Part shown: positions 44,228-46,987 of the stretch, piece after piece
How the letters are laid out: each line of letters starts with the position of its first letter
How positions within the stretch are numbered: position 1 is the stretch's first letter
From: Micromonospora ureilytica
GTDB lineage: Bacteria > Actinomycetota > Actinomycetes > Mycobacteriales > Micromonosporaceae
Direction: 5' to 3'
DNA length: 64,000 bases
NCBI RefSeq assembly: GCF_015751765.1
Contig: NZ_JADOTX010000001.1
Span: 868,001 to 932,000 of the forward strand
The notes under the pieces: generated by a model
Databases searched by the model: none
Told to the model about the DNA's origin: nothing
The model's input: the letters and a program-made list of their open reading frames with translations, nothing else
Translations under genes and position numbers: made by a program

Positions 44228-45442
44228 GTGGCCAATCTGCTGCGCAGGCGTGAGAGTCCGCAGCGGCCGACCTTCCTGGAACTGTTCTTCGATCTCGTGT
44301 TCGTCTTCGCGCTCACCCGGATTGTGCACGAGTTGGTGTTGGACTACACCAGGGGTCACGTCGCGGAGAGGTTGACCACCTCCCTTGCGGAGAACGGCGA
44401 GACTCTGTTGCTGCTGTTGGCGGTCTGGTGGATCTGGACCCAGACGGCATGGGTGACCAGTAGATTTGATCCGTTTCAGCCGCCGATCCAGTTCGTTGTG
44501 GTTGCGACGATGTACGGGAGCCTGCTCCTGGCGGTCGCGATTTCGGGGGCTCTCGCCGAGACTGGTCTGCTCTTCGCGAGCACCTATGTCGCGATTCAGG
44601 TGGGCCGCACCCTCTTCTTCGTAGGCGTCGTGCGAGGTCACAATCTGCGCCGCGTCAACATGCTGGCACTCATCTGGTTCGGCGCGTCGGCCGTACCGTG
44701 GCTCGCCGGAGCCTTCGCTCCCGAGGTAACGCGCAATTCGCTGTGGACGGTGGCCTTGGCGATCGACTACCTGGGGGCCAGACTCGGCTGGCCGGTACCG
44801 GGGCTGGGTCGCTCGCGGGGGTCCCCGTGGGCCGTCGCGGGCGAGCACCTGGCCGAACGCTACTGGCAGCTTGTCATTGTCGCGCTTGGTGAGACGATCC
44901 TGACCTCCGGATCGAGTCTTCTCCGCGGTCCGATCGTGGCGCAACGAACGATGGCCCTTACCTTGTCGTTCCTCACCACGGTATTGCTGTGGCGGATCTA
45001 CTTCTACCGAGCCGGCCAAATCCTGGGCGAGGCCATCGCGGCATCCGCCGATCCTGCCCGGCTCGGTCGGTTGGCCGAGTTCGCGCACCTGCTCATGGTG
45101 TCCGGCATCCTCGCCAGCTCAGCCGGCTCCGAACTCGTCCTCCTAGATCCATCCGGAGACGCGAAACCCGCCTGGGTCGGGGCCATCCTCGGTGGGCCTG
45201 CGCTCTACCTCGCCGGGCGCTCGGTATTCGAGTACGTGGCCTTCGCGCGGGTGTCCTGGCCGCGGCCGATCGGGATCTTCGTCCTCGCGGCCATGGCGCC
45301 GATCATGGTCGGCCTACCGCCCCTCGGGGTTGCTGCGGCAGCTGTCGCGGTCCTGCTCGGCGTTGCCGTCTCTGACACGATCCGAGCCCATGGACGTCCA
45401 CTGGAGGAGGCCTCGCCGCCCCGCTTCGGTGAGGTGAGGTAG
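44228..45442 (+). CDS. Low-temperature-requirement A (LtrA) family membrane protein
   Basis: 404 aa from GTG 44228 (GAGG at 44218-44221, 6 nt spacing; GTG 44213 is an alternative). About 11 hydrophobic segments. RPTFLELFFDLVFVFALTRI near the N-terminus and AERYWQLVIVALGETIL in the middle are diagnostic of LtrA, a family named from a Listeria cold-growth locus whose biochemical role is not established. Monocistronic, ended by the hairpin at 45563-45603. Confidence 0.9.
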   Translation: MANLLRRRESPQRPTFLELFFDLVFVFALTRIVHELVLDYTRGHVAERLTTSLAENGETLLLLLAVWWIWTQTAWVTSRFDPFQPPIQFVVVATMYGSLLLAVAISGALAETGLLFASTYVAIQVGRTLFFVGVVRGHNLRRVNMLALIWFGASAVPWLAGAFAPEVTRNSLWTVALAIDYLGARLGWPVPGLGRSRGSPWAVAGEHLAERYWQLVIVALGETILTSGSSLLRGPIVAQRTMALTLSFLTTVLLWRIYFYRAGQILGEAIAASADPARLGRLAEFAHLLMVSGILASSAGSELVLLDPSGDAKPAWVGAILGGPALYLAGRSVFEYVAFARVSWPRPIGIFVLAAMAPIMVGLPPLGVAAAAVAVLLGVAVSDTIRAHGRPLEEASPPRFGEVR

Positions 45443-45562
45443 AACCTGGTGCAGGTCTTGCCGTGCTGTTCGAGCCCGCCGGCCCGGACGAGGGCGCGTC
45501 GGTCGGGGTTGCTTGGTCGTCGGTGAGGTGGAGCGCCCGGCAAACGCGCGGGACCCGCGGGC

Positions 45563-45603
45563 GCACGGCCGGGAGGACAGGGGCCCGGTCCTTCCGGCCG
45601 TGC
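45563..45603 (+). terminator. Terminator after the LtrA gene
   Basis: 16-bp stem, 45563-45578 with 45588-45603 (GCACGGCCGG then AGGAC pairing with GTCCT then CCGGCCGTGC, one G-T wobble) and a 9-nt loop. It insulates the LtrA gene from the exporter leader that begins 45 bp further on. Confidence 0.75.
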
Positions 45604-45648
45604 TACGCTGCGCCCCATTGTCCTCACGTATTGATGGGAGGCGGGACT

Positions 45649-45705
45649 GTGAACATTCATTTCGTCATGCGTTTCCGCGCCATCAGGAGGCCAGTCGGCG
45701 CCTGA
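45649..45705 (+). CDS. 18-codon regulatory leader peptide of the MFS exporter
   Basis: GTG 45649 follows a strong ribosome binding site GGGAGG (45636-45641) and reads MNIHFVMRFRAIRRPVGA to TGA at 45703-45705. Codons 7-10 give Met-Arg-Phe-Arg. Arg-x-Arg motifs after Met (MRLR in the ErmD and Mef leaders, recalled from the literature) make ribosomes stall when macrolides are bound. The codons for this motif (45667-45678) coincide with RNA arm 1 of the attenuator described in the next entry. Position, ribosome binding site, motif and RNA arms agree, so a regulatory leader is the best reading. It is too short for a normal gene call. Confidence 0.7.
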   Translation: MNIHFVMRFRAIRRPVGA

Positions 45706-45745
45706 GCGGAAACGACGTTCCGTTTCCAAGGGTGGGAAGTCGTTG
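45669..45745 (+). promoter_or_regulatory. Translational attenuator in the 5' leader of the MFS gene
   Basis: Arm 1 CGTTTCCGC (45670-45678) pairs perfectly with arm 2 GCGGAAACG (45706-45714). Arm 3 CGACGTTCC (45713-45721) pairs with arm 4 GGAAGTCG (45735-45742) except for one bulged G; arm 4 is the ribosome binding site region right before TTG 45743. Alternatively GGAAACG (45708-45714) pairs with CGTTTCC (45721-45727), which excludes both other helices. A ribosome stalled on arm 1 would therefore free the exporter's ribosome binding site, as in ermC. Confidence 0.68.
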
Positions 45746-46987
45746 ACTCCGCTGACCAAAACATCTGACAAGCCTGCGCCGGTACTTGACAGCTCTTTCT
45801 GGAAACTGTTCTCCGCGTCGGCCACGGTTACCAGCGCCGATGGCATCGCCAGAGTGTCGCTGCCACTGCTCGCCACGTCGTTGACCACCAACCCGGTGCT
45901 CATCTCTGGCCTCACCGCGTTCTCGTTCCTGCCATGGCTAGTGTTCGGTCTACCCGGCGGCGCGCTGGCGGACCGGCTGGACCGTCGGGCAGCCATGTCG
46001 ACCGTCAACTTCATGCGGGCAGCCCTGATCGGTGCTCTCGTGCTGCTCATCATCACCGGCGTGGACAGCATTCTGGTGCTCTACGTCATCGCGTTCGCGC
46101 TCGGTCTCTGCCAGGTGGTGTACGAGTCGGCGGTCCGCGCCATCCTGCCCCAGATCGTCAACCGTCGCGGTCTCGACAAGGCCAACAGCTGGTTGACCGT
46201 CGAGGAGACCGTCGGCCAGAGCTTCGTCGGTCCGCCAGTGGGTGGGTTGCTCTTCAGCTGGTTCCGCGCCGCTCCTCTGCTTGGCGCTGCGATCGGCTTC
46301 GCGGTGGCCGCCGTCCTCGTGCTCGCCGTCCCCGGTCGGTTCCGACCGAAGCGCACCGAGCCGACGACCCTGCGCGCGGACATCCGCGACGGACTGCGCT
46401 GGCTCTGGCGGCACCCTTTGCTGCGCGGGTTCACGATCCTCAGTGGGCTGATAGCTGGATTGATGTCCATGGCTACCTCGCTCTTCGTCCTGTACGCGCT
46501 GGAGACGCTGAAGCTGAGCCCGTCGGTGTACGGCATCTTGTTCATCGCCATGGGGATCGGCGGCCTCGTCGGGTCTGCTGCGGTCGGTCCGCTGACCGCC
46601 CACCTCGGACGGCCGCGAATGATCAATATCGCCGTGACGATCGCCCCGGTGATGTTTGTCCTTCTCGGCACTGTTACGAACATCTGGGCGGCCGGCGTGT
46701 GGTTCTTCGGCATCGCGGTGGGCATTACGATGTGGAACGTGCTGGCGATGTCGCTGAAGCAGGCGTTGATCCCGGACGAACTGCTCGGTCGAGTGCTCGG
46801 CGCCCACCGCGTGGTGTTGTGGAGCGGCATCCCACTTGGCGCTGTGCTTGGTGGAGTCGTGGCCGCCGAGACCAGCGTGCCGACCGCGTTCGCGGTATCC
46901 GGTCTCGCCCAGCTCGTCGTCGTGGCCCTGCTCTACCGGCTGATCAACCGGCACCAACAGATGATCGTCGAGTCCGCCGGGTCCTGA
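45743..46987 (+). CDS. Mef-like MFS exporter (DHA3 family), probably drug-inducible
   Basis: 414 aa, 12 membrane segments, TTG start at 45743 with GTGGGAAG just upstream. DSSFWKLFSASATVTSADGI, SFLPWLVFGLPGGALADRLDRR (motif A), YESAVRAILPQIVNRRGLDKANSW and IPDELLGRVLGAHRVVLWSG are hallmarks of the DHA3 group with Mef macrolide exporters and siderophore exporters. The upstream leader ORF and RNA arms suggest induction by a ribosome-targeting antibiotic such as a macrolide. The cargo is inferred from this context only. Ends at a 19-bp terminator. Confidence 0.9.
   Translation: MTPLTKTSDKPAPVLDSSFWKLFSASATVTSADGIARVSLPLLATSLTTNPVLISGLTAFSFLPWLVFGLPGGALADRLDRRAAMSTVNFMRAALIGALVLLIITGVDSILVLYVIAFALGLCQVVYESAVRAILPQIVNRRGLDKANSWLTVEETVGQSFVGPPVGGLLFSWFRAAPLLGAAIGFAVAAVLVLAVPGRFRPKRTEPTTLRADIRDGLRWLWRHPLLRGFTILSGLIAGLMSMATSLFVLYALETLKLSPSVYGILFIAMGIGGLVGSAAVGPLTAHLGRPRMINIAVTIAPVMFVLLGTVTNIWAAGVWFFGIAVGITMWNVLAMSLKQALIPDELLGRVLGAHRVVLWSGIPLGAVLGGVVAAETSVPTAFAVSGLAQLVVVALLYRLINRHQQMIVESAGS

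Follow-up and report, generated by a model that had tools for sequence, protein, structure and literature searches.

A conserved Arg-Phe-Arg leader with competing RNA helices before an actinobacterial MFS exporter, and related leaders before a GNAT acetyltransferase

Translational attenuators of the ermC type are built of four RNA arms, the first of which contains the stall site, and pikromycin is a natural ketolide from a Streptomyces. Arg-x-Arg is a documented arrest motif for ketolides and macrolides, as set out in work on the ErmDL leader (PMC8298421). There, translation of ErmDL in the presence of telithromycin halts at Arg6-Leu7-Arg8 while Leu7 occupies the P site and Arg8 the A site, erythromycin also arrests it at this place with less dependence on the two Arg residues, and the resistance of the pikromycin producer answers to ketolides only (PMC8298421). 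In pneumococci the leader MTASMRLR is required for the induction of mef(E) (PMC4335068). The lmrC attenuator of Streptomyces lincolnensis involves a transcription terminator and an ABC-F gene and responds to lincosamides, streptogramins A and pleuromutilins (PMC8546547).

We have analyzed a window of 64,000 nucleotides of Micromonospora ureilytica DNA, from a genome of 7.1 Mb in a single contig, in which a leader of 18 codons precedes an MFS exporter. By analogy, this leader probably acts in the manner of the leaders of ErmD and Mef(E), a likeness of function rather than of established kinship. Like Mef(E)L and its kin in streptococci (mef(E)/mel), it is an Arg-x-Arg leader before an MFS exporter, but Mef(E)L has 8 codons with the motif at the end and acts via a Rho-independent terminator (PMC4335068), whereas here the motif lies at codons 8-10 of 18 and no such terminator was found at the locus. 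With ErmDL and ErmK (core MTHSMRLR) it shares an M-R-x-R core, found as MRFR in the window and in one orthologue (L044), and a predicted arrest in which x occupies the P site and the second Arg the A site. ErmDL controls a methyltransferase and its arrest is demonstrated (PMC8298421), whereas the leader in the window stands before an exporter and its arrest is predicted; residue 7 of the exporter leaders is M, T, L or P. The lmrC system, the nearest actinobacterial case that we met, is alike in being an actinobacterial ribosome-mediated attenuation of a resistance-type gene, but with a terminator and another gene family (PMC8546547). Among the open-access papers listed in our searches, judged by title and the opening of the abstract, none describes a leader with RFR or RSR upstream of an MFS exporter or a GNAT in actinobacteria, a search in which subscription papers mostly lay outside, and the string MRFR did not occur in the part of the matching open-access literature that was covered. 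Against Rfam, the region 45400-46000 of the window gave 12 matches at E<=10, each under its gathering score, and six related loci gave none at E<=1.

Leader and exporter in the window

The elements of the locus, all on the forward strand, are the following.

45601..45609, +, extended -10-like element TGCTACGCT, a putative promoter element with conserved TGnTRnnnT
45636..45644, +, leader ribosome-binding site GGGAGGCGG, with GGGAGG at 45636-45641
45649..45705, +, leader ORF of 18 codons, VNIHFVMRFRAIRRPVGA, read from the sequence, with GTG start at 45649 and TGA stop ending at 45705
45670..45678, +, arm 1 CGTTTCCGC, leader codons 8-10 (Arg-Phe-Arg), the presumed stall site; pairs with arm 2
45699..45703, +, leader end, from codon 17 to the first stop base; can pair with 45730-45734 in the exporter ribosome site (helix X:4)
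45706..45714, +, arm 2 GCGGAAACG, directly after the leader stop; pairs with arm 1
45721..45727, +, arm 3, CGTTTCC; pairs with GGAAACG of arm 2 (45708-45714)
45728..45738, +, exporter ribosome-binding site AAGGGTGGGAA, read from the sequence
45743..46987, +, MFS exporter of 414 aa with TTG start; matches MFS_1 and MFS_3

The leader ORF, its ribosome site, the Arg-x-Arg at codons 8-10 and the TTG start of the exporter are thus where a preliminary description of this DNA had placed them. Between the leader stop and the exporter TTG there are 37 bases. A generic sigma-70 scan of 45440-45800 gave no consensus promoter pair, and a scan of the same region gave no terminator-like site, so that an intrinsic terminator was rejected and control is most likely exerted at translation. 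As a separate observation, AGGAGG at 45685-45690, in leader codons 13-14, resembles an internal ribosome-site-like element; GG.GG is kept at these codons in all ten exporter leaders, and the first five GNAT leaders considered below have GAGG.

The exporter had been called Mef-like. It does match the MFS_1 and MFS_3 families, and its best NCBIfam match is TIGR00900, the drug:H+ antiporter subfamily of the MFS (194.1 bits, under the cut-off of 319.6), but the Mef label is loose. The scores against Mef(A) (49.8 bits, cut-off 675), Mef(B) (48.2, cut-off 800) and Mef(En2) (22.4, cut-off 800) are all under their thresholds, and by the curated models the exporter is not a Mef. It has no relative by sequence in the PDB and none among 50,697 phage records, and the nearest protein in a protein search is a cluster with a Micromonospora ureilytica member, 98% identical.

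We consider it rather probable that the best explanation of the locus is a ribosome-stalling attenuator that senses a drug of the macrolide or ketolide type and raises the expression of the exporter. Starting from the leader ORF, the RFR motif, helices 1:2 and 2:3 and the -10-like element, all of them observed and conserved, the leader would be transcribed together with the exporter and translated. A drug of this type in the exit tunnel would arrest the ribosome when Phe9 occupies the P site and Arg10 the A site; the arrested ribosome would cover arm 1 (45670-45678), and arm 2, released from arm 1, would pair with arm 3. Refolding to 2:3 would then lead to more exporter expression, the predicted direction and last step of the switch.

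Conservation and distribution of the leader-exporter pair

Eleven close orthologues of the exporter were compared, the window and ten others at 68-79% identity. These ten are L034, L044-L048, Glycomyces paridis (L031 and L033, the same contig stretch), Actinokineospora terrae (L032) and two Streptomyces plasmids (L050 and L051). The leader is present in 10 of the 11, spread over several groups of actinomycetes. The single orthologue without it, a case of the kind that the preliminary description had named as refuting, is that of Glycomyces paridis, in which the exporter starts directly behind another gene. Since the leader is conserved in close orthologues, we take the observation as real. In A. 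terrae the middle of the exporter has been lost by an internal deletion (L032, 3001-3280), with the leader intact. Both plasmids have an AIR-synthase-related gene after the leader-exporter cassette, and L050 carries an integrase and a Tn3 transposase within 4 kb of it.

Leader length is 18 codons, or 17 in L047, and the leader stop lies 36-39 bases before the exporter start. Arg-Phe-Arg at codons 8-10 is invariant in all ten, as is GGAGGCGG (45637-45644) within the leader ribosome site, and the TGnTRnnnT element lies 32-43 nt upstream of the leader start in each of them. Outside RFR and the initiation codon, conservation reaches 9/10 at codons 6, 13 and 18 only, while codons 4, 5, 7, 12, 15 and 16 are highly variable. 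With three to five Arg codons in each of the ten leaders, an amino-acid attenuator that senses a shortage of charged Arg-tRNA would be conceivable. This is extremely unlikely in our view: the gene controlled is an MFS protein of the exporter type and not one of arginine metabolism, and the only invariant Arg codons are R8 and R10, R14 being Gly in 3 of the 10.

Model R1 was built from three exporter leaders and model R2 from 15 leaders. R2 detected the leader in 10 of the 11 close orthologues but, at E<=1, not in any of the 33 homologues of greater distance (L002-L030, L035-L037 and L049), each scanned on both strands with 1500 bases upstream; the ten exporter leaders are themselves among the 15 sequences from which R2 was built. 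Two extra weak R2 matches in leader-bearing loci, L032 5428-5512 (E 0.039) and one on the opposite strand of L044 (E 0.54), were taken for chance. In a tree of 12 exporters (without L032, L036 and L037) the leader-bearing proteins and the leaderless one of G. paridis form one clade with support of 100/100, two homologues of 48-49% fall outside it, and the inner branches are mostly open. Placed on this tree, the presence of the leader takes two changes, as good as 123/500 sets of shuffled labels, and judging by the sequences it would fit one gain and one loss.

The search of genome contigs gave two exporter orthologue loci. No orthologue above 41% was found among 60 relatives, which include 36 other genomes of the same genus, and in a class sample of 394 genomes the window's own exporter was the only match at E<=1e-90. 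The 330 genomes of its family contained six matches, three above 70% including the window's own and the rest at 45-48%; the 41 relatives of genome G609 returned the same two orthologues again, and the three genomes of the family of G040 had no exporter match. Family f15, with 390 genomes, contributed six matches, of which five had an identity of 73-79% and the sixth 49%. From their named relatives, f15 was taken for Pseudonocardiaceae and f33 for Streptomycetaceae. On plasmids there were two exporter matches above 60%, and a search with the leader DNA matched these same two exporter records alone, so that no plasmid carried it before another gene. The cassette appears to move, because it is found on two Streptomyces plasmids and no orthologue above 41% exists in the 36 congeners.

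Mutually exclusive helices and the exporter ribosome site

In the window, helix 1:2 is a perfect helix of 9 bp (45670-45678 with 45706-45714) and helix 2:3 has 7 bp (45708-45714 with 45721-45727). As arm 2 is common to both they are mutually exclusive, just as had been proposed. A perfect 9-bp helix anywhere was obtained in 221 of 20,000 dinucleotide-preserving shuffles of 45649-45745, and two overlapping helices like those of the window in 1/20,000. The region 45630-45775 folds only mildly better than shuffled sequences (z -1.8; 11/200 shuffles fold as well), with helix 1:2 missing from the minimum-energy structure and present in the centroid.

Across the ten exporter leaders helix 1:2 has standard pairs in 90 of 90 cells, and helix 2:3 in 93.8%. 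Eight of the nine pairs of helix 1:2 never vary. The remaining one is U-A in eight leaders and C-G in two, a double change that is synonymous in leader codon 8, and compensation within the exporter leaders is confined to this single pair; the covariation score was reached by 7/500 shuffles. As RFR lies within mutually pairing arms, RNA pairing alone could preserve part of the motif. The exporter start is TTG in 9/10 and GTG in the other, so that the weak start noted at 45743 is a conserved feature. A conserved 5' region without drug response, in which the structure affects the stability of the mRNA or holds expression at a constant low level, would also have a use for weak starts. Two conserved and mutually exclusive helices together with an invariant in-frame motif exceed the needs of such a static element, and we regard it as very unlikely. 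An exporter induced by a drug would be in keeping with the invariant RFR, with the compensated change that is synonymous in codon 8, with the conserved weak start and with the patchy, plasmid-borne occurrence of the gene.

A fourth arm was also part of the earlier proposal, which expected helix 3:4 to cover the exporter ribosome site. As letters this helix is present in the window (45713-45721 with 45735-45742, 8 bp with one bulge). Arm 4, GGAAGTCG, nevertheless adjoins the AAGGGTGG core of the ribosome site and overlaps it by one base. Compared with related genomes, the R-x-R leader and helix 1:2 are found in 10/11 with one compensated pair, but 3:4 is not kept. We have rejected it as a general feature: its GGAA partner is missing in L050 and L051, and in L034 the region is different. 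The locus has arms and a presumed stall site in arm 1 as in the ermC type, but no conserved 3:4 helix was found.

The preliminary description further held that a stalled ribosome opens the exporter start, and here ensemble folding did not bear it out. Over the ten exporter leaders the ribosome site had a mean unpaired probability of 0.40 when helix 1:2 was imposed and of 0.43 when a ribosome was stalled at codon 9. Counting changes larger than 0.05, it went up in five leaders (the window's own among them, from 0.29 to 0.43), down in two and stayed about level in three. The cost of opening the exporter site and start rose slightly on average, from 8.3 to 8.8 kcal/mol. In the GNAT leaders introduced below (n=29: 30 leaders minus L064, which has no open gene start, with L071 and L080-L082 left out) the mean fell from 0.43 to 0.36 upon stalling, the site being more open in 8 and less open in 15. 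The analysis thus supports the pairing and its exclusivity but not the final step of the switch, for which folding gives no consistent opening of the site. The leader, RFR, the exclusive helices and the weak starts of the original interpretation stand, while the 3:4 hairpin and the opening by stalling are not supported.

A different arrangement is suggested by helix X:4, in which leader codons 17-18 (CCGCCU) pair with the exporter ribosome site (AGGUGG), prolonging 2:3 in most orthologues. Here 2:3 plus X:4 would be the closed state, and 1:2, or a ribosome late in the leader (codons 13 to the stop), the open one, so that the exporter would respond to slow translation of the leader end or slow termination and not to arrest at RFR. 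X:4 is paired in 88.3% of cells over the ten exporter leaders and X:4 plus 2:3 in 91.4%, with two pairs changed on both sides, a result reached by 15/500 shuffles. The combined state is favored at equilibrium (mean P(2:3) 0.78, mean P(X:4) 0.66), and codons 17-18 are mostly Ala-Ala (7/10 and 9/10) despite lying downstream of RFR. P(X:4) exceeds 0.5 in 7/10 leaders, there mostly prolonging helix 2:3, and in these the modeled extension would leave the site closed rather than opened. Still, we hold this arrangement to be unlikely. X:4 is mismatched in L034, L050 and L051 and has a probability near zero in the window itself, its covariation score is no better than that of shuffles (176/500), the GNAT leaders have different ends, and arrest at the invariant RFR would shut the gene.

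Related leaders before a GNAT acetyltransferase

Over 397 genomes of the order, model R1 matched five places besides the window, all of them leaders of 17-18 codons before one kind of GNAT acetyltransferase of 300-303 aa. A search of 188 genomes of the class with model R2 gave matches in five: the window's own leader, three before the GNAT (one of them, L056, with E 0.045 in this search, precedes the GNAT) and a marginal one before an alpha/beta hydrolase. In the Streptomyces family, R2 matched 25 places in 23 of 150 genomes, 23 of them new. Each was read, and in all 23 such a leader precedes the start of the same GNAT, including the five places with E > 0.003. In 21 of the 23, a count that excludes L071, the leader is followed by an ORF that measures 200 aa or more; in L064, as read here, the frame is not open. 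Among 17 plasmid records with a GNAT match, five were looked at; the leader is present in three at 56-73% identity and absent in two at 36-43%. Altogether the GNAT leaders (L039-L043, L053, L054, L056-L079 and L080-L082) come from a Micromonospora-like genome, from f15 and from Streptomyces. One of the enzymes (L040) had no NCBIfam match, and another (L053) no relative by sequence in the PDB.

The GNAT leaders have 15-21 codons, with R/C-S-R/L/H/C in arm 1, before a GNAT of about 300 aa. The motif in the 34 leaders is RSR in 19, RSL in 7, RSH and CSH in 3 each, and CSR and RSC in one each. In the 22 GNAT leaders listed from the Streptomyces family, arm 1 is in frame with a start codon at a ribosome site. 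Over the GNAT folding set it begins at codon 7, 8, 9 or 11, figures uninformative on frame since the folding script put the leader start in frame with arm 1. In an alignment of fifteen exporter and GNAT leaders the register is kept and all gaps measure 1 or 3 bases, and over these 93.3% of the cells of helix 1:2 pair. Twelve cells are changed on both sides, which none of 500 shuffles reached, a control that ignores relatedness and includes GNAT leaders themselves found with a model of helix 1:2. The double changes fall in two pairs of the helix, and by that measure 370/500 shuffles do as well.

The occurrence of the same kind of leader before both genes bears on the identity of the inducer. 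By analogy with the known Arg-x-Arg leaders we infer a macrolide for the exporter. GNATs inactivate several translation inhibitors that are not macrolides, and the same attenuator might answer to another ribosome-targeting compound, neither macrolide nor ketolide. The kindred leaders before a GNAT speak for this, as does the third motif position, at which 14 of the 34 GNAT leaders have a residue other than Arg (Arg-x-Arg is found in 19). We nevertheless judge it improbable, Arg-x-Arg being a documented ketolide and macrolide arrest motif (PMC8298421), and invariant in the exporter leaders. For a macrolide- or ketolide-sensing attenuator a ketolide is the first candidate as inducer, because the resistance of the pikromycin producer answers only to ketolides (PMC8298421).

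The conserved leader before the exporter and the related one before the GNAT point to an uncharted family of ribosome-sensing switches. More tentatively, with a chance that we put slightly short of even, they would form a class of actinobacterial attenuators as yet undescribed, with arm 1 embedded in the codons that encode an arrest motif of the R-x-R type and arm 2 beginning at the leader stop or a little way behind it, the RFR branch driving a mobile exporter and the mostly-RSR branch a GNAT common in Streptomyces. If this is true, the leader would single out the GNAT as a hidden resistance enzyme that antibiotics can induce. From a leader that senses a drug one can read directly what its resistance gene responds to, and a leader class common to an exporter and an acetyltransferase in actinomycetes would provide a built-in readout of the inducer for two gene families that are unstudied; it would also offer a natural test of why R-x-R motifs exist.

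The marginal match before the alpha/beta hydrolase (L055, around 1500-1600 on the minus strand) is a leader of 16 codons with similar arms, directly before a protein similar to an esterase whose structure is known (4ao6, E 3.4e-18). This esterase-like protein may be a third client of the leader class. We have given it little weight, because several matches at its level (E 0.02 per genome, over 188 genomes) are expected by chance and arm 1 is in another frame. In L039-L041 and L057-L059, finally, the sequence of arm 1 and its flank (TCCCACC) complements that of the leader's own ribosome site (GGAGGTGGGA or a similar sequence), and from this complementarity these GNAT leaders may be self-closing.
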